From Balneolaceae bacterium (lineage in GTDB: Bacteria > Bacteroidota > Rhodothermia > Balneolales > Balneolaceae), in contig SLOU01000231.1 of NCBI GenBank assembly GCA_007132385.1, positions 1 through 35,262 on the forward strand: a stretch of 35,262 nucleotides of DNA, read 5' to 3'. Shown here in pieces: positions 15,999 to 33,813 of this stretch. Within the stretch, counting starts at the first letter, position 1, and the number at the start of each line of letters is the position of its first letter. The notes under the pieces were generated by a model, which saw only the letters and a program-made list of their open reading frames with translations, did not search any database and had not been told where the DNA came from. The translations under genes were made by a program, and so were the position numbers.

Positions 15999-16006
15999 AC
16001 ATTAAG

Positions 16007-16078
16007 CTCCCCGGGTAGGATTCGAACCTACGACCCAGCGGTTAACAGCCGCTTGCTCTGCCTCTGAGCTACCGAGGA
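16007..16078 (-). tRNA. tRNA-Asn (anticodon GTT)
   Basis: Read on the minus strand, the acceptor TCCTCGG pairs with CCGGGGA, with discriminator G. The D arm is GCTC...GAGC, the anticodon stem AGCGG/CCGCT with loop CTGTTAA (anticodon GTT at 16046-16044), and the T arm GTAGG-TTCGAAT-CCTAC. It totals 72 nucleotides with all stems complete. CCA is not encoded (CTT follows). It has its own promoter upstream and a hairpin terminator downstream, so it is a single-gene unit. Confidence 0.97.
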
Positions 16079-17225: not shown

Positions 17226-17930
17226 TTATATCTTTTTTCTCAGGGATGAGGTTCTGAAACCGTAAGGTAAAAATTCTTTTGCAGGGTATGAAGAAAATGT
17301 GCCATTGCCGTGAAATAGTTCAATTATCTGGTGATTCATCCATTCGCTGATCACCTGCCGGCATCCGCCGCATGGACTTGCAAATTCACTCTTACATACG
17401 TAGATCGACAGTTTTTTGAATGTCTGGACACCGGCTGACAGCGCTTTGGCAATAGCTACACGTTCAGCGCACAGGCCGTGTGGCCAGTCACTGAATTCCA
17501 CATTGACACCTTCAATCATTCCTTTATCACAAAATAACAATACTGAGACCGGAAATGAAGAATTTGGTGTTACTGCCTGGTTTTTGAGCTGATCCAGATG
17601 ATATTTTCTATTCACTGTCGTTTTTTTAACGGGATCGAAATGATTGCCTTTCGGGAAGTCTTCATTCACAAATACTTTCAAATCAAATTCTGTCATCCAA
17701 AATTGTGAGTGATTGCCAGGTGGCTGAGGATAAATCAATTCAACTGGTATGTCGGATTCACTGAGACAGCTGGTAACAGCTGCCTGTTCAGCGGTTATAG
17801 TAAGTGGATATGAGATATTCTCAATGCGTACTCCCGGATACAAGATTCCTGATTTCCCCCGAATCAAGCAACAGGAGGCTTTTTCTGAGTATGGAGCGTA
17901 GGCATATGATCTTAATACTTGCCAGTTCAT
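17226..17930 (-). CDS. two-domain cytidine deaminase with degenerate N-terminal domain
   Basis: 234 residues with two tandem CDA folds. The C-terminal half (about 118-225) is complete: NVEFSDWPHGLCAERVA gives zinc ligand Cys154 and catalytic Glu156, and SPCGGCRQVISEW gives Cys187 and Cys190. The N-terminal half (about 1-90) has the same outline (YAPYSEKASCCL, ENISYPLTITAEQAAV, PPGNHSQFWMTEF). There the zinc ligands are replaced: Cys to Thr46, Cys to Gly72 and Cys to Ser75, though Glu48 remains. It should deaminate cytidine/deoxycytidine to the uridine form with one active domain per chain. In E. coli Cdd the active half is N-terminal, so the order here is reversed. The start overlaps the GH3 gene stop by ATGA, so translation is coupled. 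Confidence 0.85.
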   Translation of the reverse strand: MNWQVLRSYAYAPYSEKASCCLIRGKSGILYPGVRIENISYPLTITAEQAAVTSCLSESDIPVELIYPQPPGNHSQFWMTEFDLKVFVNEDFPKGNHFDPVKKTTVNRKYHLDQLKNQAVTPNSSFPVSVLLFCDKGMIEGVNVEFSDWPHGLCAERVAIAKALSAGVQTFKKLSIYVCKSEFASPCGGCRQVISEWMNHQIIELFHGNGTFSSYPAKEFLPYGFRTSSLRKKI

Positions 17931-20851
17931 GGTTCTGCAAGGCTTCTCATTACGGTATCGGCTATTTCAGGACGAATCTGTCGTATTTCAGTCCCATAAC
18001 TGCGGTTCGGATACGTTCGGTTTGTTAAAAGAATGATGGATATACCCGAATCAGGATCAATCCAGATACTTGTACCGGTAAACCCGGTATGACCGAAGGA
18101 GTTGGGTCCCAACAAACTACCGGCACTTGTGTAATCCTCGCTTTTGCGGTCGAATCCGTATGCTCTTTGATTGATCGGGGATCTGTGACCTGTAAAGAGC
18201 TCAATGGTGGCAGGTTGCAGGTATGTTTTTCCCGCATAAAATCCCTTGTTTAGTAACATTTGAGAAAATATGCCCAGATCTTCGCCGGTTGCAAACAGTC
18301 CGGCATGCCCTGCAACACCATCCATAAAATAAGCTCTTTCATCGTGCGCGTAACCCTGAACGGTACCCCTGCCGTAAATAATATCAATTTCAGTTGGAGG
18401 TATCCGGTTTCTCATCCATATGCCCAAACGCCCCGGATTAAAATGAGTACTGCTCATTCTCAGTGGATTAAAGAATTGGTTCCGTATAAATCGGTCGATT
18501 TCCTGGCCGCTTACCTCCCGAACTATTTCAGCCAGCAGAATGAATCCGAGATCGCTGTAAACATATTCTTCTCCGGGGGCGTTTTCAAGTGGTTCATCAC
18601 GTACAGCCCTGATCAATTCGCTTCTGGATTGTAGTCGATCCACGTAAATTCGAAAAGCAGGTAAACCGGATGTATGAAGAAGCAGATGCCTGATAGTAAC
18701 ATCACTTTTTACCGGGGCATCATATTCAGGTATATATCTGGAGACTGGGTCGTCAAGGCTGATTTTCCCCTCTTCGTGTAATTTCATAATTGCAGTGGTA
18801 GTCGCCACAACTTTGGTTATCGAAGCCAGATCATAAACATCATTTGATCTGACAGCCCTGGTTTTGGTATAGTCATGATATCCATAACCCTTGTTCCAGG
18901 CGATGACCCCGTCTTTTAATACGGTTACCACACCTCCGGGAAATATTGAATCTTCAATGGCCGATTGCATGATGTCATCAATTCTCATGAGAGAATCGGT
19001 ACGAAAGCCCACCGTTTCCGGTGAATCAAACCGGATTACCGAATGAGGCATTTCAATTCCGTCTCCCGGATCATACAATCCGGGAATATCTACGGGAATC
19101 CTGCCGGCAATGTTAGAGCCGCCAAAAAGTGCCGGAACTGTGTTTATAACCTGATGGCTGGATCCCGACCAGGCAAGGATATGTGCATCCGTATCCTTCA
19201 ATTCCTGCAGTACATATGGATTGCCAAATGCGATCAAAACCGAGGGTTGATCCAGCTTCTCAAGCTTTCTGAGAAATGAAAGCTGGTCGTCGGTAAGTTG
19301 CATCGGTTGGTGGGAACGCACAAATATAAATGACCCGATAACCAACAGGTCAGCATTCATAGCATCCGATAATATATTTTCCTTTTCCTCTTCCCCTGTT
19401 CTGCGATCTAAGGCATGGAATACGACGTTAGAGTGATATTTCCGCATTTCTCTTGCCAGATTATTACCGGTTGACCCGGAATGGTCGTCGGCTACTGATA
19501 CGACCACAATACGCTGGTTATCGATCTCTCTGATGGGTAAAATTTCATTTTCATTTTTCAAAACAGTAACCGATTCACGTGCAATCCGATTGGAAATTTT
19601 CCGGTGCTCCGGGGTGTTGATTTTGTAATCAAGTGCATGGATATCGGGCAGTGGGTTTTCAAAGAGCCCGTTTTCTTTTTTCAGATTCAGAATTTTTCGA
19701 ACCGATTGCTCGATACGCTCTTCCGAAAGCCGGCCATGTTTTACAGCCATTTCCACTTCATGTATGGCAGTCATTTCATCCGGACTGATGAGCATCACAT
19801 CCGCTCCGGCACTCAGAGATCTTATTACAGCTTCACCGGGTGAAAACGTGTTTGTAATACCTTGCATTTCAAGGCCGTCAGTGACTATCAAGCCGTCAAA
19901 ACCCAAACTATCGGAAAGTATTCCATTCAGTATTTCCGGATCCAGTGTGCCGGGAAGCTCAGGGTTTGAACTGATATTTGGGAATGCAATGTGTGCACTC
20001 ATGATACTTCTGAGGCCACTCTCTATTGCTATTTGAAATGGTCGTAATTCGATTGATTTCAGCCGTTCATAATTATGATGCATAACCGGAAGTGCCAGGT
20101 GCGAATCGGTATCGGTATCCCCGTGTCCTGGAAAATGCTTGGCAGTTGCAAGCAGGCCCTCTTCTTCAACACCTCTGATGAAGGCGTTCCCAAATTCGGC
20201 AACCATCTCGGGGTCAGCCGAAAATGAACGTACATTGATGACCGGGTTTTCCGGGTTATTATTAACGTCAAGAACCGGGCCAAAGATCTGGTGCACACCA
20301 AGAGCTTTAGCTTCACGTGCGGTTATTTTTCCCTTCAGATAGGCATTTTGAGGATTTCGTGTTGCTGCAATACCCATTGCAGGAGTAAACCGTGTAGTAC
20401 CCTGTACTCTCATTGCTGCCCCGAATTCCATATCCTGTGTAATCCAGAGCGGGATTTCAGAGCGTTGCTGAAGTTCTCTTGTCATAACAGCCTGTCCATA
20501 GATGTCTCCTGCCATAAAAATGAGTCCACCTACTTGATAACGGTCGATCAATCTTTTCCATTCAAGATATCTTTGGTCATATTGATTTCTGAATGTACCG
20601 TTAACCGGAATAAAAAAGAGCTGGCCAATTTTTTGCCGCAGTGACATCTCCTGAAGCAGTGAATCAACGTCTGTATGAGATATTTCTTCAGGTTTCTCTG
20701 TCACCGGTAGATCGGGGGATGGTTCTTCCAGGCCGGTTTCAACAGGCTGTTCTTCAGGCGTAGTGGGGAAAGCCGGTTCACTGCTTTTACAGGCAATGCC
20801 AAAAATTAACCACAACGTCAGCAGATAGATGATGATATGTTTGATGTTCAT
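17927..20851 (-). CDS. GH3 beta-N-acetylhexosaminidase (NagZ-like) fused to serine beta-lactamase/CubicO-type hydrolase, lipoprotein
   Basis: 974 residues. An N-terminal signal with candidate lipid-attachment Cys21 (LIFGIAC) leads into a Pro/Glu-rich linker. A GH3 domain (about 62-400) follows, with the NagZ signature KHFPGHGDTDTDSH (238-251) and the nucleophile Asp325 in IVTDGLEMQGI. A GH3 C-terminal-type domain spans about 420-600. The last domain (about 615-970) is a class-C-beta-lactamase/CubicO fold with SITK (Ser677, Lys680), YSD (Tyr765) and HTG (921-923). All catalytic residues are present in both enzymes. It probably removes GlcNAc from peptidoglycan fragments and hydrolyses a peptide or ester bond in the same material at the membrane. 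The gene lies 66 bases downstream of penicillin acylase and overlaps the CDA gene. Confidence 0.93.
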   Translation of the reverse strand: MNIKHIIIYLLTLWLIFGIACKSSEPAFPTTPEEQPVETGLEEPSPDLPVTEKPEEISHTDVDSLLQEMSLRQKIGQLFFIPVNGTFRNQYDQRYLEWKRLIDRYQVGGLIFMAGDIYGQAVMTRELQQRSEIPLWITQDMEFGAAMRVQGTTRFTPAMGIAATRNPQNAYLKGKITAREAKALGVHQIFGPVLDVNNNPENPVINVRSFSADPEMVAEFGNAFIRGVEEEGLLATAKHFPGHGDTDTDSHLALPVMHHNYERLKSIELRPFQIAIESGLRSIMSAHIAFPNISSNPELPGTLDPEILNGILSDSLGFDGLIVTDGLEMQGITNTFSPGEAVIRSLSAGADVMLISPDEMTAIHEVEMAVKHGRLSEERIEQSVRKILNLKKENGLFENPLPDIHALDYKINTPEHRKISNRIARESVTVLKNENEILPIREIDNQRIVVVSVADDHSGSTGNNLAREMRKYHSNVVFHALDRRTGEEEKENILSDAMNADLLVIGSFIFVRSHQPMQLTDDQLSFLRKLEKLDQPSVLIAFGNPYVLQELKDTDAHILAWSGSSHQVINTVPALFGGSNIAGRIPVDIPGLYDPGDGIEMPHSVIRFDSPETVGFRTDSLMRIDDIMQSAIEDSIFPGGVVTVLKDGVIAWNKGYGYHDYTKTRAVRSNDVYDLASITKVVATTTAIMKLHEEGKISLDDPVSRYIPEYDAPVKSDVTIRHLLLHTSGLPAFRIYVDRLQSRSELIRAVRDEPLENAPGEEYVYSDLGFILLAEIVREVSGQEIDRFIRNQFFNPLRMSSTHFNPGRLGIWMRNRIPPTEIDIIYGRGTVQGYAHDERAYFMDGVAGHAGLFATGEDLGIFSQMLLNKGFYAGKTYLQPATIELFTGHRSPINQRAYGFDRKSEDYTSAGSLLGPNSFGHTGFTGTSIWIDPDSGISIILLTNRTYPNRSYGTEIRQIRPEIADTVMRSLAEP

Positions 20852-20917: not shown

Positions 20918-23362
20918 CTACCTGGGAACTAACTGCATGGTTTGATAACTGGTTTCATGGAAAAAAGTACTGTCCTGGTAGATATAACGATACTGACCCT
21001 GAAGCCAGAGTTCGGTTTGATCACCAAAAAATTCGGATAGAGGATTGCCGGACTGACCGGTGGGCAAAATACTGTGACTACGGCCTCTGTCGGAAAAATC
21101 AACAATCCGCCGGATAGACGGCCCGAGTGTCATCTCGAAAGGTTCCAGCCAGCTGTATTCCCCTTTATTCAAACTCATTCCATGGCCAGGTGCAGCATAG
21201 GGGCCTTTACTCATAAGATTGTTTACGATCATTTTAAGTGTGATGGATGCATCTTCTTCCTTTATGGCGTCCCGAAAAAGGGGAGGAGCCAGCGAGACCG
21301 TATGTAAATTCTCCCATCTCCAGAGAAACGGTTCAGGCCCATATTGTTCGGTAAGCCAGTCGATTGCATCCTGCATACTTTGTGCAATGATATCATCACG
21401 GGTTTCGGTGACATCGGTTTGTTGATTATTAAATAAGAAACTGTCTTCCATCAACAGGCGCGTCATAACACGAACCGGGACATTTTCAAGGCGCATGAAA
21501 TTTGTAAGCACCTCTTCACTCATAAGGTCACTCATCGTATTACGGGTCAGTTTTATAAAGAAAGCATCCAGGACAGAAGCTGCAGTTGATTCGGGCAGGT
21601 ACTGGAAGTCCCAGTTTTCCAGGTAAGGTGCTACAACGGTATAATCAAACTCATCACTGCTCAGACGGAGTATTGGCAGGATAAGCTCTACAATTTCACG
21701 TGCATGTACCGAATAGCTGTCAAATTGCATTTGTTGAAAAATGTTGGCATCCACTGTATCGACCTCAGCCAAAAATTCTTCAATTCGTTCAATGCGGGAA
21801 GGAGGTTCCCAGAATGTAGCTATATAATGCGGATAACTGTCGGTATGAAGCTTGTTATTTGCATTTGCCACGTAACCGGTTTCCGGGTTTATGATTCTTG
21901 GCATTTCATCAAAATCAATCCAGTCGTACCAGTCATAATCAGGGTCCCATCCGGGTCTGAAAAGAAGTGGATTAAAATCACGGATTGGCAAGCGTGCGGC
22001 GCTGAAAATTGCAATATTCCCCTCTCGATCTGCATATGTAAAATTCTGACCCGGTGTATGGAAATACCCGAGTGCTTCCCGAAAAGATTCCAGATTCTCA
22101 GAACGGTTGATTTGATAGAGGGCATATATTTCATGACTTACCTGATGTCCGGTCCATTTCATGGATATAAGCCGGTCATCGGCGATCTCCACATTTGGAT
22201 ATATATCTGTAATGATGGGGCCATGCATGGTTTTACGAAACCGGTAATGGATATCATCGTTATCCTTGACCCTGATGACTTCATCCTGATTTTCGTAATC
22301 CCGGTAAATTGCCTCACCATTGAGGCTGTCAGCCAGATACTGATCTGAATGATCCGGGTTTTGTATTTCAAGAAAAAAATCGGTGTCGTCTGCCATCATA
22401 TTGGTCAGCGACCAGGCAAAGTCATTGTTTTGGCCCAATACAACCACTGGAGAACCCGGAATGGTTGCCCCTGTAATGGTATGGTTTTGAACTGACTGGT
22501 GCATTTCATACCAGTGGCCAGGCATGGAAATCCCCATATGAGGATCGCCGGCCAGTATAGGCATGCCGGAGTGAGTCCGGCTTCCGTCGACCGCCCAGGC
22601 ATTGCTGCCAACCGAAGTCCCTTTGCGGCCGGTCATTGATCGAAACCTGAATTCGGTATCAAGTATGGGCATTACAGCTTCGGCAGCCTGGAGCGATTGC
22701 TGCTCGTTCATCATAGTCGGATATGTGTCGTCATACCGTGGGAAAAGTTCCTGTAAAACCGACATCGGCAGGTTTTCAGCCAGGTGGGCATACGTTAGTT
22801 TACTCCACCAGCTGATGTTCATCTCCCATGCCATCAGCCTCGAAATAGCATAAGAGTGAGTGGGTGTCCATTCGATCGGTTCGATACCGAGCAGCATAAA
22901 TTCGACCGGCAGGTTTCCTTTGTTCTGTTCAACAAAATCATTAACACCCCGGGAGTAGGCTTCCAAAACGGTATGAATTTCTTCAGGAGCTTCTTGCTCA
23001 ATTCGTTCGGCTGTTTCCCAAAATCCAAGCGTTCTCTGGTATTTATCAAATTCGATCAGATCTTCACCAAGAAACTCGGCAAATCGGCCTTCGGCTGCAA
23101 TCTGTGTGAACGTCATTTGCCAAAGACGATCTTGTGCATGTACATATCCAACGGCATAGTAGAGATCTTCCTCGTTGTCGGCATATATGTGGGGTACGCC
23201 GAATGTATCCCAGTGTATATCCACATTGCTGTTTAGTCCGGGCAACTCTACAACGGCAGAATAATCGGGTAGGGGCTTGTAGAATGTCCAGTAAATAGCC
23301 AGTGCAGATACACCCAGAATCAGTATCAGTAGAAATAGGGCAATGCGAAGAACAGTTTTCAT
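20918..23362 (-). CDS. penicillin acylase family protein (Ntn hydrolase)
   Basis: 814 residues from the ATG at 23362. The ORF track extends it by 108 codons, but that segment (MNTLKCLLFF...) overlaps the divergent gene's leader, whereas MKTVLRIALFLLILILGVSALAIYW is a proper signal/membrane anchor. The alpha chain contains DIHWDTFGVPHIYADNEEDLYYAVGYVHAQDRLWQM, the typical family start. The autocatalytic cleavage site is GSNAW, making Ser253 the N-terminal nucleophile of the beta chain. The distal Asn near LENVPVRVM and the C-terminal SILPTGQSGNPLSEFFGDQTELW block also fit. Such periplasmic enzymes cleave amide bonds in penicillin-like compounds, N-acyl-homoserine lactones or acyl-peptides. It heads the envelope gene train; substrate unknown. 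Confidence 0.93.
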   Translation of the reverse strand: MKTVLRIALFLLILILGVSALAIYWTFYKPLPDYSAVVELPGLNSNVDIHWDTFGVPHIYADNEEDLYYAVGYVHAQDRLWQMTFTQIAAEGRFAEFLGEDLIEFDKYQRTLGFWETAERIEQEAPEEIHTVLEAYSRGVNDFVEQNKGNLPVEFMLLGIEPIEWTPTHSYAISRLMAWEMNISWWSKLTYAHLAENLPMSVLQELFPRYDDTYPTMMNEQQSLQAAEAVMPILDTEFRFRSMTGRKGTSVGSNAWAVDGSRTHSGMPILAGDPHMGISMPGHWYEMHQSVQNHTITGATIPGSPVVVLGQNNDFAWSLTNMMADDTDFFLEIQNPDHSDQYLADSLNGEAIYRDYENQDEVIRVKDNDDIHYRFRKTMHGPIITDIYPNVEIADDRLISMKWTGHQVSHEIYALYQINRSENLESFREALGYFHTPGQNFTYADREGNIAIFSAARLPIRDFNPLLFRPGWDPDYDWYDWIDFDEMPRIINPETGYVANANNKLHTDSYPHYIATFWEPPSRIERIEEFLAEVDTVDANIFQQMQFDSYSVHAREIVELILPILRLSSDEFDYTVVAPYLENWDFQYLPESTAASVLDAFFIKLTRNTMSDLMSEEVLTNFMRLENVPVRVMTRLLMEDSFLFNNQQTDVTETRDDIIAQSMQDAIDWLTEQYGPEPFLWRWENLHTVSLAPPLFRDAIKEEDASITLKMIVNNLMSKGPYAAPGHGMSLNKGEYSWLEPFEMTLGPSIRRIVDFSDRGRSHSILPTGQSGNPLSEFFGDQTELWLQGQYRYIYQDSTFFHETSYQTMQLVPR

Positions 23363-23402
23363 ACAGATGATTAATACAGACCTTATATTATGTGTTGTAA
23401 GA

Positions 23403-23442
23403 TTGAAAATTCCGGGCAAAATACATACTCTGAAACCCGGAA
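23403..23442 (+). promoter_or_regulatory. predicted promoter and dyad upstream of the hydroxyacyl-CoA dehydrogenase gene
   Basis: TTGAAA (23403-23408) and TACTCT (23426-23431) are separated by 17 bases. A perfect 7-bp inverted repeat, TTCCGGG (23410-23416) and CCCGGAA (23436-23442) with 19 bases between, brackets the -10 box. That is the geometry of a repressor operator. The regulator is not identified. Confidence 0.45.
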
Positions 23443-23467
23443 AGATCCTAAGAAAAATAACATTATT

Positions 23468-24322
23468 ATGAGTGAGAAGAAGAAAGTTTCTGTTATCGGT
23501 GGCGGAACTATGGGAAATGGGATTGCTCAACTCTTTGCACTTCACGAGTACCAGGTCCACGTTGTTGAAACCAATCAGGAACTTGCAGACCACGCCTTTG
23601 AGGCGATTGAAATAAATCTGGATCGAATGGTCCAAAAAGAGAAAATCGACAATAAGAAAAAAAAGGAGACACTTCAATGTATTCACTTATTTCAGGCAGC
23701 GGAAGATGCTGTAAAAGGTTCGGAATTGATTATCGAAGCTGTTCCTGAAGAATTTGAAATAAAAAAACAGGTATTTTCAGATTTAGATGAACATGCACCA
23801 GAAGATGCTATCCTGGCTACAAACACATCGTCCATTTCCATAACAAAACTTGCTGCGGTTACCAGCCGGCCGAACCGGTTTATCGGTATGCATTTTTTTA
23901 ATCCGGTTCCGGTAATGAAGCTCGTGGAGGTGGTAAGCGGACTTCAAACGGATCCAGAAGTGGTGCACAGGATACAACAGACAGCGAAAGAATTAGGCAA
24001 AGTACCTGTTCCGGTCAAGGATTCACCTGGATTTGTGTCCAATCGTGTTTTGATGCCGATGATAAATGAAGCGATATTTTGTGTGTACGAGGGAGCAGCA
24101 ACCCCTGAAAACGTGGATGAGATTATGAAGCTTGGGATGGGACATCCGATGGGTCCGCTGCGGCTTGCCGATTTTATCGGATTGGATGTTTGCCTGGACA
24201 TACTGAATGTACTGTACGAGAGTTTCAGGGATTCCAAATACCGTCCGTGTCCACTATTAGTACAGATGGTGGATGCCGGTAATCTGGGTGACAAGACCGG
24301 GTCCGGATTTTATAAGTATTGA
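23468..24322 (+). CDS. hbd: 3-hydroxybutyryl-CoA / 3-hydroxyacyl-CoA dehydrogenase
   Basis: 284 residues from the ATG at 23468 (MSEKKKVSVIGGGTMGNGIAQ); the track's 26-residue extension is untranslated leader by family alignment. The NAD fold has GGGTMG (11-16). The catalytic dyad is His142 in GMHFFNPVPVMKLVEV and Glu154, 12 residues apart as in the family. The C-terminal dimerisation domain contains DSPGFVSNRVLMPMINEA and ends GDKTGSGFYKY. It interconverts 3-hydroxyacyl-CoA and acetoacyl-CoA in beta-oxidation or butyrate-type metabolism. It is the short, single-function form, without a crotonase domain. It is divergent from penicillin acylase and followed by threonine aldolase 88 bases on. 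Confidence 0.93.
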   Translation: MSEKKKVSVIGGGTMGNGIAQLFALHEYQVHVVETNQELADHAFEAIEINLDRMVQKEKIDNKKKKETLQCIHLFQAAEDAVKGSELIIEAVPEEFEIKKQVFSDLDEHAPEDAILATNTSSISITKLAAVTSRPNRFIGMHFFNPVPVMKLVEVVSGLQTDPEVVHRIQQTAKELGKVPVPVKDSPGFVSNRVLMPMINEAIFCVYEGAATPENVDEIMKLGMGHPMGPLRLADFIGLDVCLDILNVLYESFRDSKYRPCPLLVQMVDAGNLGDKTGSGFYKY

Positions 24323-25521: not shown

Positions 25522-26322
25522 ATGATTCAATCAATTAGTGATAGTGAATTAACGCAATTTAGAGAAGCTGCTGAAGACTTTGCCCGGAAGGGAGGGGATT
25601 CAACGCTGGAGTATTTTGAAAATAGATTATTCGGATTGGAATTCAAGTCTGATCAGTCGCCGGTAACCAGGGCCGACAGGGAATCTGAAGAGATCATTCG
25701 TGAAGAAATTATTTCCAGGTTCCCGGATCATGGCATCATTGGTGAAGAATATGGCAGCGAAGGCGAGGATAAAGATGTAGTTTGGGTAATCGATCCTATT
25801 GATGGTACTCAATCGTTTATCCATGGGATTCCGCTCTACTCTACATTGATTGGGGTCCTGATCAATGGGTCACCACTGGTGGGTGTGATTTATGTGCCTG
25901 CACAGAAAGAACTGGTATCTGCTGCAGCAGGTATGGGTGCTCAATGGAACGGGAAAACGTGTCGAGCCCGTACCTGCAATGAATTGGGCGAGGCGACGTT
26001 TTTAACAACGGATGTCGTTCACATACATAAATATGAATTTTATCAACCGTTTAAGGAACTCATAGATAAAACAAGGATACACAGAACATGGGGAGATGCC
26101 TACGGTCATTTAATGGTAGCCACCGGGAGAGCTGATATTATGTTTGATCCTATTTTAAGCATTTGGGATGCTGCAGCATTGCTGCCGGTGGTATCAGAGG
26201 CAGGAGGCAGTTTCTCCGATGTATATGGAACTGCATCCATTGAAACCGGTAATGCATTGTCCTGTGCTTCAGGTTTGCAGAATTCTGTATTAGAACTGTT
26301 TAAAAAACATAACAAAGTATGA
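25522..26322 (+). CDS. hisN: inositol-monophosphatase-family phosphatase, histidinol-phosphatase (HisN)-like
   Basis: 266 residues with all metal-binding motifs of the Mg-dependent IMPase family: GEEYGSE (74-80), DPIDGTQSF (91-99) and WDAAALLPVVSEAGG near 215. The order SPVTRADRESEEIIREEI then IDPIDGTQSFIHGIPLYSTLIG resembles HisN histidinol-phosphatases more than SuhB or CysQ. The assignment between histidinol phosphate, inositol phosphate and 3'-phosphoadenosine phosphate is still by resemblance only. No other his genes are near. Its stop overlaps the next gene's start (ATGA), so the two are translationally coupled. Confidence 0.85.
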   Translation: MIQSISDSELTQFREAAEDFARKGGDSTLEYFENRLFGLEFKSDQSPVTRADRESEEIIREEIISRFPDHGIIGEEYGSEGEDKDVVWVIDPIDGTQSFIHGIPLYSTLIGVLINGSPLVGVIYVPAQKELVSAAAGMGAQWNGKTCRARTCNELGEATFLTTDVVHIHKYEFYQPFKELIDKTRIHRTWGDAYGHLMVATGRADIMFDPILSIWDAAALLPVVSEAGGSFSDVYGTASIETGNALSCASGLQNSVLELFKKHNKV

Positions 26323-28637
26323 TAAAAAAGATAATATTCTCGTCAACAGTCCTGGTTTTTTTAACCCTTTCTTTGCAAGTGGAAGTTACATTTGGCCAGG
26401 AAACAGATTTTCTCGCTTTTCCGGAACGTGTAGCTGATTACGAACATCTGGAATTGAACCTTGAAATTACTGAAGATCTTGATATCAGGGGGGATGCTCT
26501 CTATACATTTAACCTGTTAAGGGTGGATTCAGACTCAATCAGGCTTAACGCGGTTCGAATTAGCATGGAAACGATTGAATTGAATGGTGAAGAAGCAGAT
26601 TTCCGGATTGATGATGATCAGATAATCATCAAAATACCGGAAGAATTATCTGTAGAAGAGTCACACCAGCTCCGGATTCAATATAGGGCAAATCCAGTAT
26701 TTGGTGTTTTTAAAAATAGAAACGGTACCATCTGGAGTTCCGGAATGCCGGCTTCCGTACGCCATTGGCTACCTGTTAAAGACCATCCCAGAAACAGTTT
26801 TACAACAGACATCAACCTGATATTTCCGACCGGAAATGAAGCTGTATTTGCAGGGGAAAGAGGCAATACTGAAGTGGAGTCGGTAGATTTACAGAGAGTA
26901 CGTTTTCAATCAGACGAGCGAATTCCGGTTTCTTCCCTAAGATTTGCCATTGGTGATTTTGTCAGAACCCAATCAACGGTGGGTGACCATCAAATTACTC
27001 TTTATTCGGAAAGGGATTTACTCGGTGATGATGAATTGGGAGAGCTTTTAAATGATGCAAGAGATACTTTTCAGTTCACTTTGGAAACTCTTGGTTCTGA
27101 ATATTTCTCCCGGGTACTTAATCTGATTGTTTTGGATGACCATCATTGGGAGACTCGACCCTATGGAGCAGGAACTGTTTTTGCCTATACCTCACTGGGT
27201 TTCCTGTCCGAACAGATCGCCTCCGGTGTAATAGGCCAGTGGCTGGGTGTTCAGCTTCGCGAAGAACAGTGGTCCGATCCGGATGCTATCCTGTTGTTGC
27301 AAGCCTGGCTGCTTGAGCAATCCGGGCTGAATATCGAACTGCCGTCTGAATCCCCGGATATGTTTGTTGAAAGCATATATAATCATTTTGGGATGGATTC
27401 CAGGGCAGCCTGGAGATCATTTTTCCGGTCAGATGATTCCGAGAGATACAAAGCTGCGCTGAATAATTTTGACTTTAGCGGGTTAAAAGAACAATCCGAA
27501 GTTGTAAACTGGTATGATTTTACGACTTTTTTATACAACCGTACGGGCAGGAACCTCATGGAAAAACCGAGCCCCGAAACTCCTGAAATGGATGATGAAG
27601 ATGAACAAATACCAGTTTATCGTGTCGTTTATCATCATAATGAAGAGGAAGAAAGATTGAGGCTGGAGTTTATTGGCGAGGATGCAACAATCGATGAACT
27701 GGTCTCATTGAGAGTTCGGGAAGTGACTTTTAACGATGAGCGGGAACGGGAAATAACGTTTACTGGGACAAGGGATGAAGTTCACCTAAATGTAAACCGC
27801 GGGATTGAAAATTTAACTTTATATGCTGAAGACGATCAGCAGGTGAAACTAAAACCCGAAAAACCATTTCGATTCTGGATTTACCAGTTGCAGCATGATG
27901 AGGATGCCGAAAAAAGGAGAGAAGCGGCTGTTGGCCTTAGAAACTTTACGGAAAATCCTGATCTGCAACTGGCACTTCTTGATATAATTGACTCAGAAGA
28001 GAATGAGGAAGTTTTTGCAGAAGCCTTGAAGACCCTTTCCTACGTAACCAATGGGGCAAGCGGAACGGATCAGCTCTTTACGCAAAGGTACAGCGGTAAT
28101 GCTGGCCGGGCTGTACAACTGGCCATTGTAGAGGCTTATTCCGATTACAATGGTAATGAACGTGTGATAAGTCAGTTGCAGAGCATACTTCAAAATACTG
28201 CATACACGGACGTTCAAAGACAAGCTGTGCGATCACTTTCTGCTATTGCTGATGATTCCCGTTTTCAGTCGATCAGTGAATCAGCTCTAACCAATGAAGC
28301 TATTGAACCTATAGCTCCTTTTATTTTACGTGAATTGGCAAGGGCTAACGACGCAGATACGGCCGTATCTATTGCCTCGAGTTTTCTTGATGACCGCTTT
28401 CCTTATCGAAACAGGGTAGAAGTGCTGGATTTATTGCTGGATTATGACAGATCTTCCGACCGGTGGGTGCGAAGAATTAACCATTTGTTAGAAGATAATG
28501 ATCCCCGAATCCGAATGAGGGCTCTCGACGGTTTGCAATTTTTAGATTCAAGTGAACGTAACGCAATTATTGATGAACGCCTTTATGAAGAATATGACGA
28601 CCGGGTTATCAGCCGGCTGAAAATGCTGCAAGGGTAG
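26319..28637 (+). CDS. exported M1-aminopeptidase-like protein lacking the zinc site, with C-terminal HEAT-like repeats (probable pseudopeptidase)
   Basis: 772 residues with a signal peptide (MIKKIIFSSTVLVFLTLSLQ). Residues 35-230 resemble the M1 N-terminal beta domain (SVRHWLPVKDHP is the equivalent of 'ARHWFPCxDEP'). In the catalytic region the GAMEN motif is GAGTV (283-287). The HExxH block, normally HELAHQWFGN, is SGVIGQWLGV (302-311), followed by EEQWSD. The third ligand region (LNEGFA) reads LLLQAW. All zinc ligands and the general base are therefore gone while the frame of the family is kept. From about 540 on, helical HEAT-like repeats occur (DEDAEKRREAAVGLRNF, RQAVRSLSAIADDSRF). The ORF is intact, so it looks like a binding or scaffold protein rather than a decayed gene. 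Confidence 0.8.
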   Translation: MIKKIIFSSTVLVFLTLSLQVEVTFGQETDFLAFPERVADYEHLELNLEITEDLDIRGDALYTFNLLRVDSDSIRLNAVRISMETIELNGEEADFRIDDDQIIIKIPEELSVEESHQLRIQYRANPVFGVFKNRNGTIWSSGMPASVRHWLPVKDHPRNSFTTDINLIFPTGNEAVFAGERGNTEVESVDLQRVRFQSDERIPVSSLRFAIGDFVRTQSTVGDHQITLYSERDLLGDDELGELLNDARDTFQFTLETLGSEYFSRVLNLIVLDDHHWETRPYGAGTVFAYTSLGFLSEQIASGVIGQWLGVQLREEQWSDPDAILLLQAWLLEQSGLNIELPSESPDMFVESIYNHFGMDSRAAWRSFFRSDDSERYKAALNNFDFSGLKEQSEVVNWYDFTTFLYNRTGRNLMEKPSPETPEMDDEDEQIPVYRVVYHHNEEEERLRLEFIGEDATIDELVSLRVREVTFNDEREREITFTGTRDEVHLNVNRGIENLTLYAEDDQQVKLKPEKPFRFWIYQLQHDEDAEKRREAAVGLRNFTENPDLQLALLDIIDSEENEEVFAEALKTLSYVTNGASGTDQLFTQRYSGNAGRAVQLAIVEAYSDYNGNERVISQLQSILQNTAYTDVQRQAVRSLSAIADDSRFQSISESALTNEAIEPIAPFILRELARANDADTAVSIASSFLDDRFPYRNRVEVLDLLLDYDRSSDRWVRRINHLLEDNDPRIRMRALDGLQFLDSSERNAIIDERLYEEYDDRVISRLKMLQG

Positions 28638-28713: not shown

Positions 28714-30009
28714 TTATGACTGGCGGAACCATTTGAGCAAATCCTTGAATCCGGCTTTTCCGCCGTATTGCAGGATCCCAACCCGGTATATGCGTGCGCT
28801 TAATAACATGGTTCCGGCGATCGTTGCAAGCATCAAAAATATCGATAACCCGATTTGCCACAAAGGCACACTGCTGATAGCCATACGGGAGATCATATTC
28901 ATCGGTGCAAAAAATGGAAAGAGCGAACCGAATAGGGAAATGCCACTGTCGGGATTTTGAACCACTTCCATATTCAGGAAAAAACCGATAAAGAGTACAA
29001 CAAATACGGGCATCATCAGTTGCTGTGTGTCCGATTCAGAGTCAACAGCGGAACCAATACTTGCAAAAAGGGCACTGTACAAAAAGTAGCCGAGTACGAA
29101 AAAAACAAAAAATCCAAAAACGAGAGAGACAGGTACAGCGGGAATTTCGAACATTGCAGGGTCAATTCCACCAGCTGCTTCCATTGCTGCCGGATCGGCA
29201 GTTACATCGCCAACCAGCATCATCGCAATTGGGCCGGCTGCCATGGCTACCAACACGATCAGCAGGGTCCAAACCGCAAACTGCGTAATTGCAACAGAGG
29301 TTATACCGAGGATTTTACCGGTCAGCAGTTCAATGGGACGGATAGAGGATGCAATAACCTCAATAATCCGGTTCGATTTTTCCTCAATTACACCACGCAT
29401 GATAATGGTACCATACATAAAGAGGGAAAAGAAGATGACCAGGCCGAGTATGAAGCCTAATGCGGCGTAAAAAGCCGCATGATCCTCTTCTTCATCACCG
29501 GTTTCCGTCAGTTTGCGGGTCTGAAGAGAGACCTGGGTTTCAAAGATATTTCTGATTTCATCAGAAACCTGTTCCCGGACCAGGCGTTCTTCCCGGATTG
29601 CTTCCCTGAGATCGGTGCGTATACTGGTTTGAAGAGTTACGCTGGAACTACCGGTATAGATATATTCAGGGGGTTGTCCGCCGGTAATATGATCTTCCGT
29701 TAGTAATATATAACCGTCGAGCTGACCGATAATAACCAAACTACGTAGTGAATCAACCGGTACGTGAGTCATATCCGTATATCGATCATCATTCTGATTG
29801 ATCAGACGTTCTACCAACATCTCGGTCTGATCGTGAATTCCGATATCCTGCTGAGGTTCACTCTCCCAGAATTGAATACCGATAATCAGGGCAATATAAG
29901 CAACAAAACCGAGTGGTATCAGCAATGTAGAGATGATAAATACCGTGCTTTTTACACGAGTCAAATACTCACGTTTCAGGACCAATAATATTTGTCTCCA
30001 ATTCATCAT
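28714..30009 (-). CDS. ABC-2 type exporter permease (NatB-like)
   Basis: 431 residues. MMNWRQILLVLKREYLTRVKSTVFIISTLLIP is the typical cytosolic start and first helix (about 20-46). A large extracytoplasmic domain (about 47-180) precedes five further helices between about 183 and 415, including LGFILGLVIFFSLFMYGTIIMRGVIEEKSNRIIEVIASS, the conserved ABC-2 coupling block. This matches NatB/ABC2_membrane_3 permeases that export Na+, antibiotics or lipids. It is encoded 19 bases downstream of its ATPase. The start could be either of the two first Met codons. Substrate unknown. Confidence 0.92.
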   Translation of the reverse strand: MMNWRQILLVLKREYLTRVKSTVFIISTLLIPLGFVAYIALIIGIQFWESEPQQDIGIHDQTEMLVERLINQNDDRYTDMTHVPVDSLRSLVIIGQLDGYILLTEDHITGGQPPEYIYTGSSSVTLQTSIRTDLREAIREERLVREQVSDEIRNIFETQVSLQTRKLTETGDEEEDHAAFYAALGFILGLVIFFSLFMYGTIIMRGVIEEKSNRIIEVIASSIRPIELLTGKILGITSVAITQFAVWTLLIVLVAMAAGPIAMMLVGDVTADPAAMEAAGGIDPAMFEIPAVPVSLVFGFFVFFVLGYFLYSALFASIGSAVDSESDTQQLMMPVFVVLFIGFFLNMEVVQNPDSGISLFGSLFPFFAPMNMISRMAISSVPLWQIGLSIFLMLATIAGTMLLSARIYRVGILQYGGKAGFKDLLKWFRQS

Positions 30010-30028
30010 TTCTCTGCGAAATTATCAG

Positions 30029-30949
30029 TTATACCAGTTCTTTTGGATTTACATTATCCTCGCCAACAGTAGTGATAAATATTTCGGTGAGTGAGGGTTC
30101 CACCAACTCGAATTTTTGAATCTCAGTATGTTCCATCGCTTTTTCCAAAATCATTTGTGGTTTCTGGTCATCGAGAATACGTATTTCAGCGAAGTTGGTG
30201 GAGCGGTTATTGATCCGAACACCATCGAGTAGTTCTATAAAACTGCCATCACCTACAAATTCCAGCAAGACAGTATTTTTACCCGCGTTTTTTTTGATTT
30301 CACGCAAATTTCCGGTCAATACTGCCCGGCCATTGTTAAACAGGCAGATATCATCACACATCTGTTCAACCTGTTCCATGCGGTGCGTGGAAAAAAGGAC
30401 AGCTTTGCCTTTCTCGCGGAGTTCGATGATGATTTCCTTAAGGAGTTCACTGTTTATCGGATCAAGGCCACTGAAAGGTTCATCAAAGATATAGATATCG
30501 GGCTCATGAACGATCGTTGCAATAAACTGAATTTTTTGACTCATACCCTTTGAAAGTTCACCGACCTGTTTAGAGTGCCAGTCGATTGCTCCAAAACGCT
30601 CCAGCCAGTAGCGGATTCTTTTTTTGGCTTCACCGGTACTTAGTCCTTTTAGTTGAGCCAGATAGAGCAGTTGTTCTCCTACTTTCATTTTTTTGTAAAG
30701 TCCACGCTCTTCCGGCAGATACCCTATCCATTTCTGTGTTTTGCTGCTAACAGTCTCATTGTGTACCCTAATTTCTCCGGTATCCGGGGATATGATATAG
30801 TTGATCATTCTCAGCGTAGTCGTTTTGCCGGCACCATTGGGACCTAAAAGCCCAAAAATTTTTCCAGTTTCCACCTCAAAACTGACATTTATGACTGCTC
30901 GGGTTTTCCCAAAACTCTTGCTTACGTTTTTTACATTTATAACGCTCAT
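30029..30949 (-). CDS. ABC transporter ATP-binding protein (NatA-like, with C-terminal DUF4162-type domain)
   Basis: 306 residues. Walker A is GPNGAGKT (36-43), the signature is LSKGMSQK (132-139), Walker B is IYIFDEP (152-158, catalytic Glu157), the D-loop is SGLDP, and the H-loop is FSTHRMEQ. After about residue 215 a non-ATPase tail (VLLEFVGDGSFIELLDGV...) matches the extension of NatA-type exporters. It powers the permease encoded directly downstream. The pair is divergent from glgA across a 144-base region. Confidence 0.95.
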   Translation of the reverse strand: MSVINVKNVSKSFGKTRAVINVSFEVETGKIFGLLGPNGAGKTTTLRMINYIISPDTGEIRVHNETVSSKTQKWIGYLPEERGLYKKMKVGEQLLYLAQLKGLSTGEAKKRIRYWLERFGAIDWHSKQVGELSKGMSQKIQFIATIVHEPDIYIFDEPFSGLDPINSELLKEIIIELREKGKAVLFSTHRMEQVEQMCDDICLFNNGRAVLTGNLREIKKNAGKNTVLLEFVGDGSFIELLDGVRINNRSTNFAEIRILDDQKPQMILEKAMEHTEIQKFELVEPSLTEIFITTVGEDNVNPKELV

Positions 30950-31093: not shown

Positions 31094-32533
31094 ATGAAAA
31101 TTATTCACATTAGTGCTGAATGTTATCCTGCCGCCAAGGCTGGCGGGCTGGCAGATGTGGTAGGGGCTTTACCAAAATATCTAAACCGAAATGGACATGA
31201 ATCGTCTGTAATCATTCCAAAATATAAAACAGACTGGCTCAATCGGCAAAAAACAAAAACGGTTTTCAAGAGTGAAGGACCTTTTGGAAATGGCAAGTTC
31301 AAATTTTCGGTTGAGAAAGTATTGGACCACGAACTCGGATTTTCTCTATACCTGGTCAACATTCCGGGGAAGTTTGACAGGGAAGGAATTTATATTGACC
31401 CGTGGTCCGGGTACGCTTTCTGGGATGAAATGGAACGGTTTTTCAGCTTTCAAATTTCAGCACTTGAATGGATCGTACAGCAGAAAGAGCTTCCGGAAGT
31501 AGTGCATTGCCATGATCATCATACAGGACTCATTCCGTTTATGATGTCAAAATGTTTCAGGTATGACAAGCTTCACGAAACGCCAAGTGTTTTAACCATT
31601 CATAACGGGGAGTACCAGGGCAGGTTCGACCTGTATCACTATAACAAACTCCCTGCGTTTAATCTTGAAGAAATCGGGTTTCTCGACTGGGGCGGAAGCC
31701 TTAATGCACTTGCAGCGGGGATCAAGTGTGCCTGGAAAGTGACCACTGTATCAGAGGGGTATCTGAATGAATTAATGGAATTTTGTCACGGTCTGGAGAT
31801 TCTGTTGCAACATGAAAAAGAAAAAGCAGTCGGTTTGATCAATGGAATAGATGTGGAGCTCTGGGATCCGGCGACAGATCCCTATCTGGAAAAAAATTAC
31901 ACTTTCAGAAACCGGATTTCCGGCAAGAAAAAAAACAAGGAATACCTTTGCAAGGAGTTTTCACTGGAACTGTCAAAACCGTTATTCTCTTTCATCGGCC
32001 GCCTGGTTAGAGAAAAAGGAGCCGATTTACTTCCGGAATTAATCAGGGAAGTGAGAAAGCAGGGGCTCGAAATGAATATCATGGTTTTAGGAACCGGAGA
32101 ACCGGAGCTCCATCGAATTTTCAAGCAGCTAAGCGGTAAATTTATTGGATATTTTGATGCAAGACTGGAATATAATGAAAGATTAGCACATAATATTTAT
32201 GCAGGTTCTGATTTTTTATTGATGCCTTCGAGAGTCGAGCCGTGTGGTTTGAATCAGATGTATGCCATGCGATATGGTACGGTTCCGGTTGTTCGTGCTA
32301 CCGGAGGCCTGGCTGATACAGTGGTGGATATATCAGAAAAGGGTGGATACGGTTTTTTATTTGAGGAATTTAGTTTGGACGATGCGATGGCCGTCGTAAC
32401 CCGGGCGGTTGATTTTTATGAGAAGCAAGACAAGTTCAAAGAAAATTTGAAGCTTCTGATGAAGCTCGATTTTTCATGGGATCAAGCCTCCATAAACTAC
32501 ATTGAAATGTATGAACAACTAAACAAAGATTAG
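31094..32533 (+). CDS. glgA: glycogen (starch) synthase, GT5
   Basis: 479 residues, usual length. The ADP-glucose-binding N-terminus is HISAECYPAAKAGGLADVVG with the KxGGL motif (Lys15). The acceptor-side block is VVHCHDHHTGLIPFM. The C-terminal GT-B domain has FIGRLVREKGADLL and the catalytic region SRVEPCGLNQMYAMRYGTVPVVRATGGLADTV (Glu382). It transfers glucose from ADP-glucose to growing alpha-1,4-glucan. glgC, which makes ADP-glucose, follows after 8 bases, so both steps are co-expressed. No branching enzyme or phosphorylase is in the window. Confidence 0.95.
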   Translation: MKIIHISAECYPAAKAGGLADVVGALPKYLNRNGHESSVIIPKYKTDWLNRQKTKTVFKSEGPFGNGKFKFSVEKVLDHELGFSLYLVNIPGKFDREGIYIDPWSGYAFWDEMERFFSFQISALEWIVQQKELPEVVHCHDHHTGLIPFMMSKCFRYDKLHETPSVLTIHNGEYQGRFDLYHYNKLPAFNLEEIGFLDWGGSLNALAAGIKCAWKVTTVSEGYLNELMEFCHGLEILLQHEKEKAVGLINGIDVELWDPATDPYLEKNYTFRNRISGKKKNKEYLCKEFSLELSKPLFSFIGRLVREKGADLLPELIREVRKQGLEMNIMVLGTGEPELHRIFKQLSGKFIGYFDARLEYNERLAHNIYAGSDFLLMPSRVEPCGLNQMYAMRYGTVPVVRATGGLADTVVDISEKGGYGFLFEEFSLDDAMAVVTRAVDFYEKQDKFKENLKLLMKLDFSWDQASINYIEMYEQLNKD

Positions 32534-32541
32534 GAGTCCGT

Positions 32542-33813
32542 ATGAGATCAGATGTGTTAGCAATTATTTTGGGTGGTGGACGGGGTTCCCGGCTTCACCC
32601 TCTGACCAAACAAAGATCCAAACCTGCAGTCCCGATTGCAGGGAAATACCGGTTGGTGGATATTCCCATATCCAACTGCCTGAATTCCGGTATCAGAAAG
32701 ATTTATGTATTAACTCAGTTTAACTCTGCTTCTTTAAACAGGCATATCAAAAACACTTACAATTTTGATGTATTCAGCAGTGGTTTTGTTGATATACTTG
32801 CTGCCGAGCAAACACCGAAGAGCCAAATGTGGTTTCAGGGTACGGCAGATGCTGTACGTCAATCTCTCCACCATCTGAGAAATCATTCATACGAATACGT
32901 TTTCATTTTATCCGGAGATCAGCTTTATCAGATGGATTACCAGAAAATGCTCGAAATTCATAAAAAGAAAAAAGCGGAGCTGACGGTAGCAACGATACCT
33001 GTTACTGCCGAAGACGCAACCGGTTTTGGAATTATGAAAACCAATAAAAACGGCCGGATTGAAAGTTTTGTGGAGAAACCGAGTATGGATGAACTCGAAA
33101 AATGGAAGTCGGAAACACCTGAAGAGTTTAATTCCAGCGGGAGGAATTTTCTCGCTTCAATGGGAATTTATATTTTCAACAAGGAGACACTGGAACGCCT
33201 GTTTAATGAAAACGAGGAGGGGACGGACTTCGGTAAGGAATTTATTCCCAAAGAGATCGATGACGGAGGGAAAGTCTACTGCTATGAGTTTGATGGCTAC
33301 TGGACCGATATCGGAACGATTAAATCGTTCTATGATGCAAACCTTGAACTTACGCAGACACTGCCGTCTTTTAATCTTTATGATAATGAACGGTACATTT
33401 ATACACGTGCCAGGTTATTGCCTGCATCAAAACTGATGGGTACAACACTCGATTATACGGTTGTTGCCGAGGGTTGTATTATCTCAGCAAGTCGAATTGC
33501 AAGATCTGTTGTGGGAATTCGTTCAAGAATCGGCAGGGGAACCACGATCGAGAATTCAATCATTATGGGTAATGATTATTTTCCGACACAGGAAGAACTG
33601 ACCAACGTATCAAAAGACGAACCGGCCATGGGAATTGGTGACAGATGCTATCTCAGCAATACCATTGTTGATAAAAACTGCAGAATCGGGAATGATGTGC
33701 GAATTGTAGGCGGTTCTCACCTGGAAGACGGAAAATACGAAAAACACTATGTTGTTGATGGAATTGTCATCATCGAAAAAGGGGAAGTGATTCCTGATGG
33801 ATATAGTATCTGA
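32542..33813 (+). CDS. glgC: glucose-1-phosphate adenylyltransferase
   Basis: 423 residues. The nucleotidyltransferase N-terminus is AIILGGGRGSRLHPLTKQRSKPAVPIAGKYRLVDIPISNCLNSG, with the NTP loop and catalytic Arg/Lys. The glucose-1-P site FVEKP, the SMGIYIF strand and YWTDIGTIKSFYDANLEL are all present. The C-terminal left-handed beta-helix (about 300-420) carries hexapeptide repeats such as CIISASRIARSVVGIRSRIGRGTTIENS. It makes ADP-glucose, the committed step of glycogen synthesis, and is usually allosterically controlled. A good AGGAG ribosome-binding site precedes the ATG within the 8-base gap after glgA. Confidence 0.96.
   Translation: MRSDVLAIILGGGRGSRLHPLTKQRSKPAVPIAGKYRLVDIPISNCLNSGIRKIYVLTQFNSASLNRHIKNTYNFDVFSSGFVDILAAEQTPKSQMWFQGTADAVRQSLHHLRNHSYEYVFILSGDQLYQMDYQKMLEIHKKKKAELTVATIPVTAEDATGFGIMKTNKNGRIESFVEKPSMDELEKWKSETPEEFNSSGRNFLASMGIYIFNKETLERLFNENEEGTDFGKEFIPKEIDDGGKVYCYEFDGYWTDIGTIKSFYDANLELTQTLPSFNLYDNERYIYTRARLLPASKLMGTTLDYTVVAEGCIISASRIARSVVGIRSRIGRGTTIENSIIMGNDYFPTQEELTNVSKDEPAMGIGDRCYLSNTIVDKNCRIGNDVRIVGGSHLEDGKYEKHYVVDGIVIIEKGEVIPDGYSI

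Follow-up and report, generated by a model that had tools for sequence, protein, structure and literature searches.

The window analysed here, a stretch of 35,262 nucleotides from a member of the Balneolaceae, encodes a protein of a pseudopeptidase family within the M1 aminopeptidases, called pseudo-M1 below. The family has lost the catalytic residues and has kept the fold under purifying selection; judged by its residues, it should be inactive as a peptidase. Nearly all relatives in the order keep the same zinc-less form, and a role other than peptide cutting is therefore most likely. The protein is rather likely to be an exported pseudopeptidase that binds a protein or a peptide, in a way comparable to TAF2 or Tma108. 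Selection for a non-enzymatic role had already been proposed in the first-pass annotation, and the vanished zinc site, the preserved M1 fold and the purifying selection agree with that proposal.

The layout of the protein and its neighbours is summarized in Table 1. The reading frame (26319-28637, +) opens with ATG and runs through 772 codons with no internal stop, intact as first described. The signal peptide noted at that stage was recognized again by inspection at residues 1-26, and an N-terminal hydrophobic leader is present in nearly all orthologues. From this leader, the protein is probably secreted to the periplasm or the cell surface. Pfam matches comprise Peptidase_M1_N (3.3e-8) and HEAT_2 (9.3e-12); the catalytic Peptidase_M1 model gave no Pfam match in the protein. 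An AlphaFold2 model, built from an alignment of 37 family members (mean pLDDT 90.8, pTM 0.83), comprises the signal helix and four domains, with boundaries at 39-232 (beta domain), 237-410 (shortened catalytic domain), 433-514 (Ig-like domain) and 517-771 (alpha-solenoid). The best PDB fold in Foldseek is TAF2 in TFIID (1.2e-30), aligned over the whole chain, and then come PepN, IRAP and ERAP. The TM-scores are just 0.43-0.53 and the rmsd is large, as expected if the domains differ in placement. A profile search of the PDB sequences agrees with Foldseek in ranking TAF2 first (4.8e-21). The structure prediction that had been suggested as a check thus returns a four-domain M1 fold with full-length Foldseek alignments to PepN, IRAP, ERAP and TAF2, and the predicted model places the protein in the M1 peptidase fold superfamily. 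The HEAT-like repeats had been regarded as a fusion. However, large M1 enzymes have an alpha-solenoid as their domain IV, and it is through this HEAT region that active relatives in Bacteroidota, 800-930 aa long, match the pseudo-M1 family profile; this part is therefore the usual M1 domain IV and no new fusion.

Table 1. Features of the pseudo-M1 locus, in window coordinates
Feature	Coordinates	Strand	Remarks
Pseudo-M1 aminopeptidase gene	26319..28637	+	772 aa, coordinates include the stop; basis: ORF, orthologues, model
Signal peptide, residues 1-26	26319..26396	+	By inspection: KK, hydrophobic core, VTFG/Q (cleavage at the slash)
Domain I, M1 N-terminal beta domain, residues 30-232	26406..27014	+	PF17900, 3.3e-8; strands in model
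Domain II, vestigial shortened thermolysin-like domain, residues 233-420	27015..27578	+	Model; alignment with active enzymes
Former site of the GxMEN exopeptidase motif, residues 278-283 (ETRPYG)	27150..27167	+	Alignment
Former HExxH helix, residues 296-312	27204..27254	+	Ser302 at first His position; QWxG kept; model and alignment
Domain III, Ig-like beta sandwich, residues 432-515	27612..27863	+	Model
Domain IV, HEAT-repeat alpha-solenoid, residues 516-772	27864..28634	+	PF13646; most strongly conserved within the family
HEAT patch conserved specifically in the order, residues 547-616	27957..28166	+	PDLQLALxD, GASGTxxxF, YxGNxxV
HisN-like gene, inositol-monophosphatase family	25522..26322	+	Directly upstream, ATGA overlap; PF00459, 5e-53
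ABC-2 permease and ATPase pair, convergent	28714..30949	-	Downstream; neighbour conserved in most loci with enough sequence

The catalytic columns were read from an alignment of 21 active M1+HEAT enzymes and 23 rows from the order. In the active rows, H, E, H and E, the Glu and Asn of GxMEN and the Tyr are all present (21 of 21). In the window protein, the first zinc histidine has become S302, the catalytic glutamate G303 and the second zinc histidine G306, and the QW.G frame is retained; the full replacement of the zinc site within a preserved frame, as claimed from the sequence at the outset, is borne out. Two other motifs had been misplaced. The GGMEN column, previously read at GAGTV, falls at about 278-282 (ETRPY), and the third ligand, sought in LLQAW, belongs to a column a few residues off, near D322-L325, where the alignment is gapped and ambiguous and places D322. 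Across the order, the first zinc histidine is replaced by Arg in 18 of the 23 rows and by other residues in the rest, the catalytic Glu by Gly or Ala in 19, and the second zinc histidine mostly by small residues; the GxMEN Glu is replaced at the aligned column. The segment of the catalytic Tyr is deleted in 20 rows, and in the other three the residue is not Tyr. One orthologue (L018) contains a GNMEN string off the aligned place, which itself reads WEEIQSGAGVIYLY. Sister species that keep HExxH were looked for, and none of the 51 orthologues has this motif anywhere in its sequence; the HExxH-18-E zinc site was likewise absent from these 51 and from the order rows at the aligned columns. The absence of HExxH from all 51 members rules out a misalignment or a shifted second zinc motif, and the conservation of the zinc-less state excludes chance and the decay of a single copy.

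Mean pairwise identity is 0.32 in the HEAT part versus 0.21-0.29 elsewhere in the protein. Conservation specific to the order was seen at 27 residues: 16 in the HEAT part, above all at 547-616, and six in the old catalytic domain (L272, W277, E278, Q299, R314 and Y406). Conservation of the HEAT part and of the surroundings of the old active site is what would be expected of a binding protein, without being proof of one. The cleft could instead have been rebuilt as a metal-free active site or a small-molecule site around the cluster W277/E278/Q299/R302/R314/Y406, whose residues the order conserves and active M1 enzymes lack, with Arg prevailing at the first zinc-histidine position. Such a different chemistry is quite unlikely, since the HEAT part shows the stronger order-specific conservation and position 302 is Ser in the window protein. 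We know of no M1-fold protein with rebuilt metal-free chemistry.

The pseudo-M1 family occurs in 52 of 59 near relatives (42 of the 46 of good quality) and, nearly always as an open frame, in 88 of the 97 sampled genomes of the order, which comprise Balneolaceae and sister families; the count of 88 leaves out weak matches to other M1 proteins. The nine genomes without it are those of the genus g5 (1.9-2.6 Mb), those of two genera with small genomes (1.5-1.8 Mb) and one incomplete genome. The gene is thus dispensable, having been cleanly lost in one genus and being absent from two small-genome genera. Outside the order, within the phylum searched, matches drop sharply, and the full-length ones are of two kinds: zinc-less proteins from a small number of further families in the class, and active M1+HEAT enzymes elsewhere in the phylum. 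Orthologues are 23-55% identical to the window protein, a divergence high enough to make one function throughout the order no more than an assumption, with residues that stay invariant in five families of the order. The dN/dS ratio, taken from pairs that are not saturated, is 0.15 and 0.10 in two close pairs, and 0.10-0.16 in more distant pairs, in which synonymous sites are near saturation. This comparison across orthologues, recommended by the first-pass annotation, points to purifying selection.

Simple decay, by which the gene would be heading for loss and would have no present function, might account for the clean losses in g5, the absence from small genomes and two split copies. It is scarcely credible in view of the low dN/dS, the retention in most of the order as open frames and the residues that are invariant across the five families. 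Decay of a single copy is ruled out by the orthologues and dN/dS, and decay is refuted for the whole family. The two split copies are orthologues in the MAGs G013:C4 and G054:C152 (L053, L063) and extend over two or three frames; these may be real frameshifts or assembly errors.

In a tree of 51 rows, the order forms a clade (100/100), and a branch (99/99) divides the zinc-less proteins, namely those of the order and six from other families of the class, from the active enzymes. When the tree was repeated without the catalytic block and two long rows, the split stayed (99/96), with five class proteins left. Provided that the root falls within the active enzymes, the split argues for a single zinc loss, and the tree fits one loss of the site before the order diverged, common to the five or six class proteins from other families. 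The class proteins retain more of the catalytic frame than the order, which has lost the Tyr segment, and the decay of the site was thus stepwise. Inside the active part of the tree, L130 (G255:C9), which is related to the active L001-type M1+HEAT enzymes, represents a second, independent loss of an M1 zinc site.

The nearest active relatives in sequence are the M1+HEAT zinc aminopeptidases of Bacteroidota (for example L094, L096 and L128, and L001 from the same genome as the window), which have the same domain order and length and a HEAT-type domain IV. All 21 of those aligned have GxMEN with its Glu and Asn, HExxH-18-E and the Tyr, whereas the pseudo-M1 family keeps none of these. LTA4H and PepN share the fold of the M1 N-terminal and catalytic domains but are active zinc enzymes. 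TAF2, the eukaryotic pseudo-M1 of TFIID and the top match by fold and profile, has an M1 fold without activity, as is predicted for pseudo-M1, and acts as a scaffold in its complex (PMC6220335). It differs in being nuclear and longer and in contacting promoter DNA and TAF8, and it is only about 14% identical to pseudo-M1. Membership in TAF2 is implausible for an exported bacterial protein, and the resemblance is one of fold only. No common inactive ancestor of the two is indicated, and independent loss is the simpler reading; inactivity inherited in common is unsupported beyond the fold rank, and the likeness is left as convergence. Tma108, a yeast M1 homologue, binds nascent chains, and its cleft takes N-terminal segments, with catalysis not shown, according to a 2024 review of inactive metallopeptidase homologues (PMC11266112). 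Unlike pseudo-M1, it retains nearly all of its active-site residues and works at the ribosome, and it is likened here by description and not by sequence.

A HisN-like phosphatase gene lies directly upstream of pseudo-M1 in 44 of 50 loci and one gene off in a few more, with the same 4-nt overlap in 11 loci; the copy in the window matches TIGR02067 at 2.3e-79 (266 bits, slightly below the model cut-off). The overlap of the phosphatase stop with the pseudo-M1 start makes translational coupling plausible. This part of the earlier description stands; its functional weight is lessened by genus g5, which has lost pseudo-M1 and kept the phosphatase. In g5, pseudo-M1 is cleanly gone from between the phosphatase and the ABC-2 permease in all four loci read (L135-L138), and the phosphatase is kept in five of five genomes. 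The neighbours hence do not depend on pseudo-M1, and the linkage with the phosphatase is old, not obligatory. It is very unlikely that the two genes form a translationally coupled functional unit serving a common process, for all their frequent adjacency and overlap: the g5 loci, with the other neighbours unchanged, weaken the phosphatase as a functional partner, the enzyme is presumably cytosolic and pseudo-M1 probably exported, and the remaining neighbours are conserved as well, which indicates general synteny.

Several other genes of the window deserve mention. A glycogen-type pair of the starch synthase and ADP-glucose pyrophosphorylase families (31094-33813) adjoins the ABC-2 transporter in many of the order's genomes. 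At 20918-24322, the starts of a penicillin-amidase ORF (-) and of a 3-hydroxyacyl-CoA dehydrogenase ORF (+) overlap over roughly 300 bases; the GTG start of the amidase is probably too far upstream, its domain beginning at residue 153. A glycoside hydrolase family 3 enzyme (17930-20851, -) carries, on the same chain, a beta-lactamase (serine hydrolase) domain at its C-terminus, and tRNA-Asn(GTT) at 16006-16078 (-) is the sole RNA gene found.

Pseudo-M1 could also pair with an active exported peptidase, for instance an active M1 enzyme of the same cell, and present substrate to it or control it, as modelled by the alpha subunit of the mitochondrial processing peptidase. Active M1 enzymes with HExxH-18-E are encoded in its own genome (L001, L002 and L003), L001 with the same M1+HEAT layout, and the pairing of active peptidases with inactive partners is a familiar theme (PMC11266112). 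Such a regulatory pairing is unlikely, because the conserved neighbours include no active peptidase gene and because two genomes (G003, G011) keep pseudo-M1 although close L001-type relatives were not found there, so that L001 cannot be the general partner.

In the preferred reading, that of an exported binding protein, the zinc site of a Bacteroidota M1+HEAT zinc aminopeptidase would have disappeared in an ancestor of the class. On the branch towards the order, the catalytic-tyrosine segment would have been lost next, with the four-domain fold kept. A protein segment or an exported partner may then be held by the remodelled cleft of the old active site together with the first HEAT repeats, which are conserved. 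By analogy with the M1 folds of eukaryotic TAF2 and Tma108, we infer that pseudo-M1 works by binding, not by cutting. It might, more specifically and with somewhat poor odds, be a bacterial exported counterpart of these proteins, in which an aminopeptidase fold became a carrier or chaperone devoted to exported proteins across the order after one ancient zinc loss.

The use of an inactive peptidase homologue for binding is of an already known kind, and the well-known pseudo-M1 proteins are, to our knowledge, eukaryotic. The literature searched, in which subscription journals are incompletely covered, yielded no bacterial inactive M1 family and no account relevant to Balneolaceae. The passages of the 2024 review that were searched name no bacterial M1 case (PMC11266112). 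Within the limits of this literature, an order-wide bacterial pseudo-M1 appears undescribed. The annotation "M1 family peptidase" in these bacteria can mislead about activity. An order-wide pseudo-M1, together with its active relatives and a zinc loss placed on a tree, provides a good system for understanding how a peptidase becomes a binding protein.
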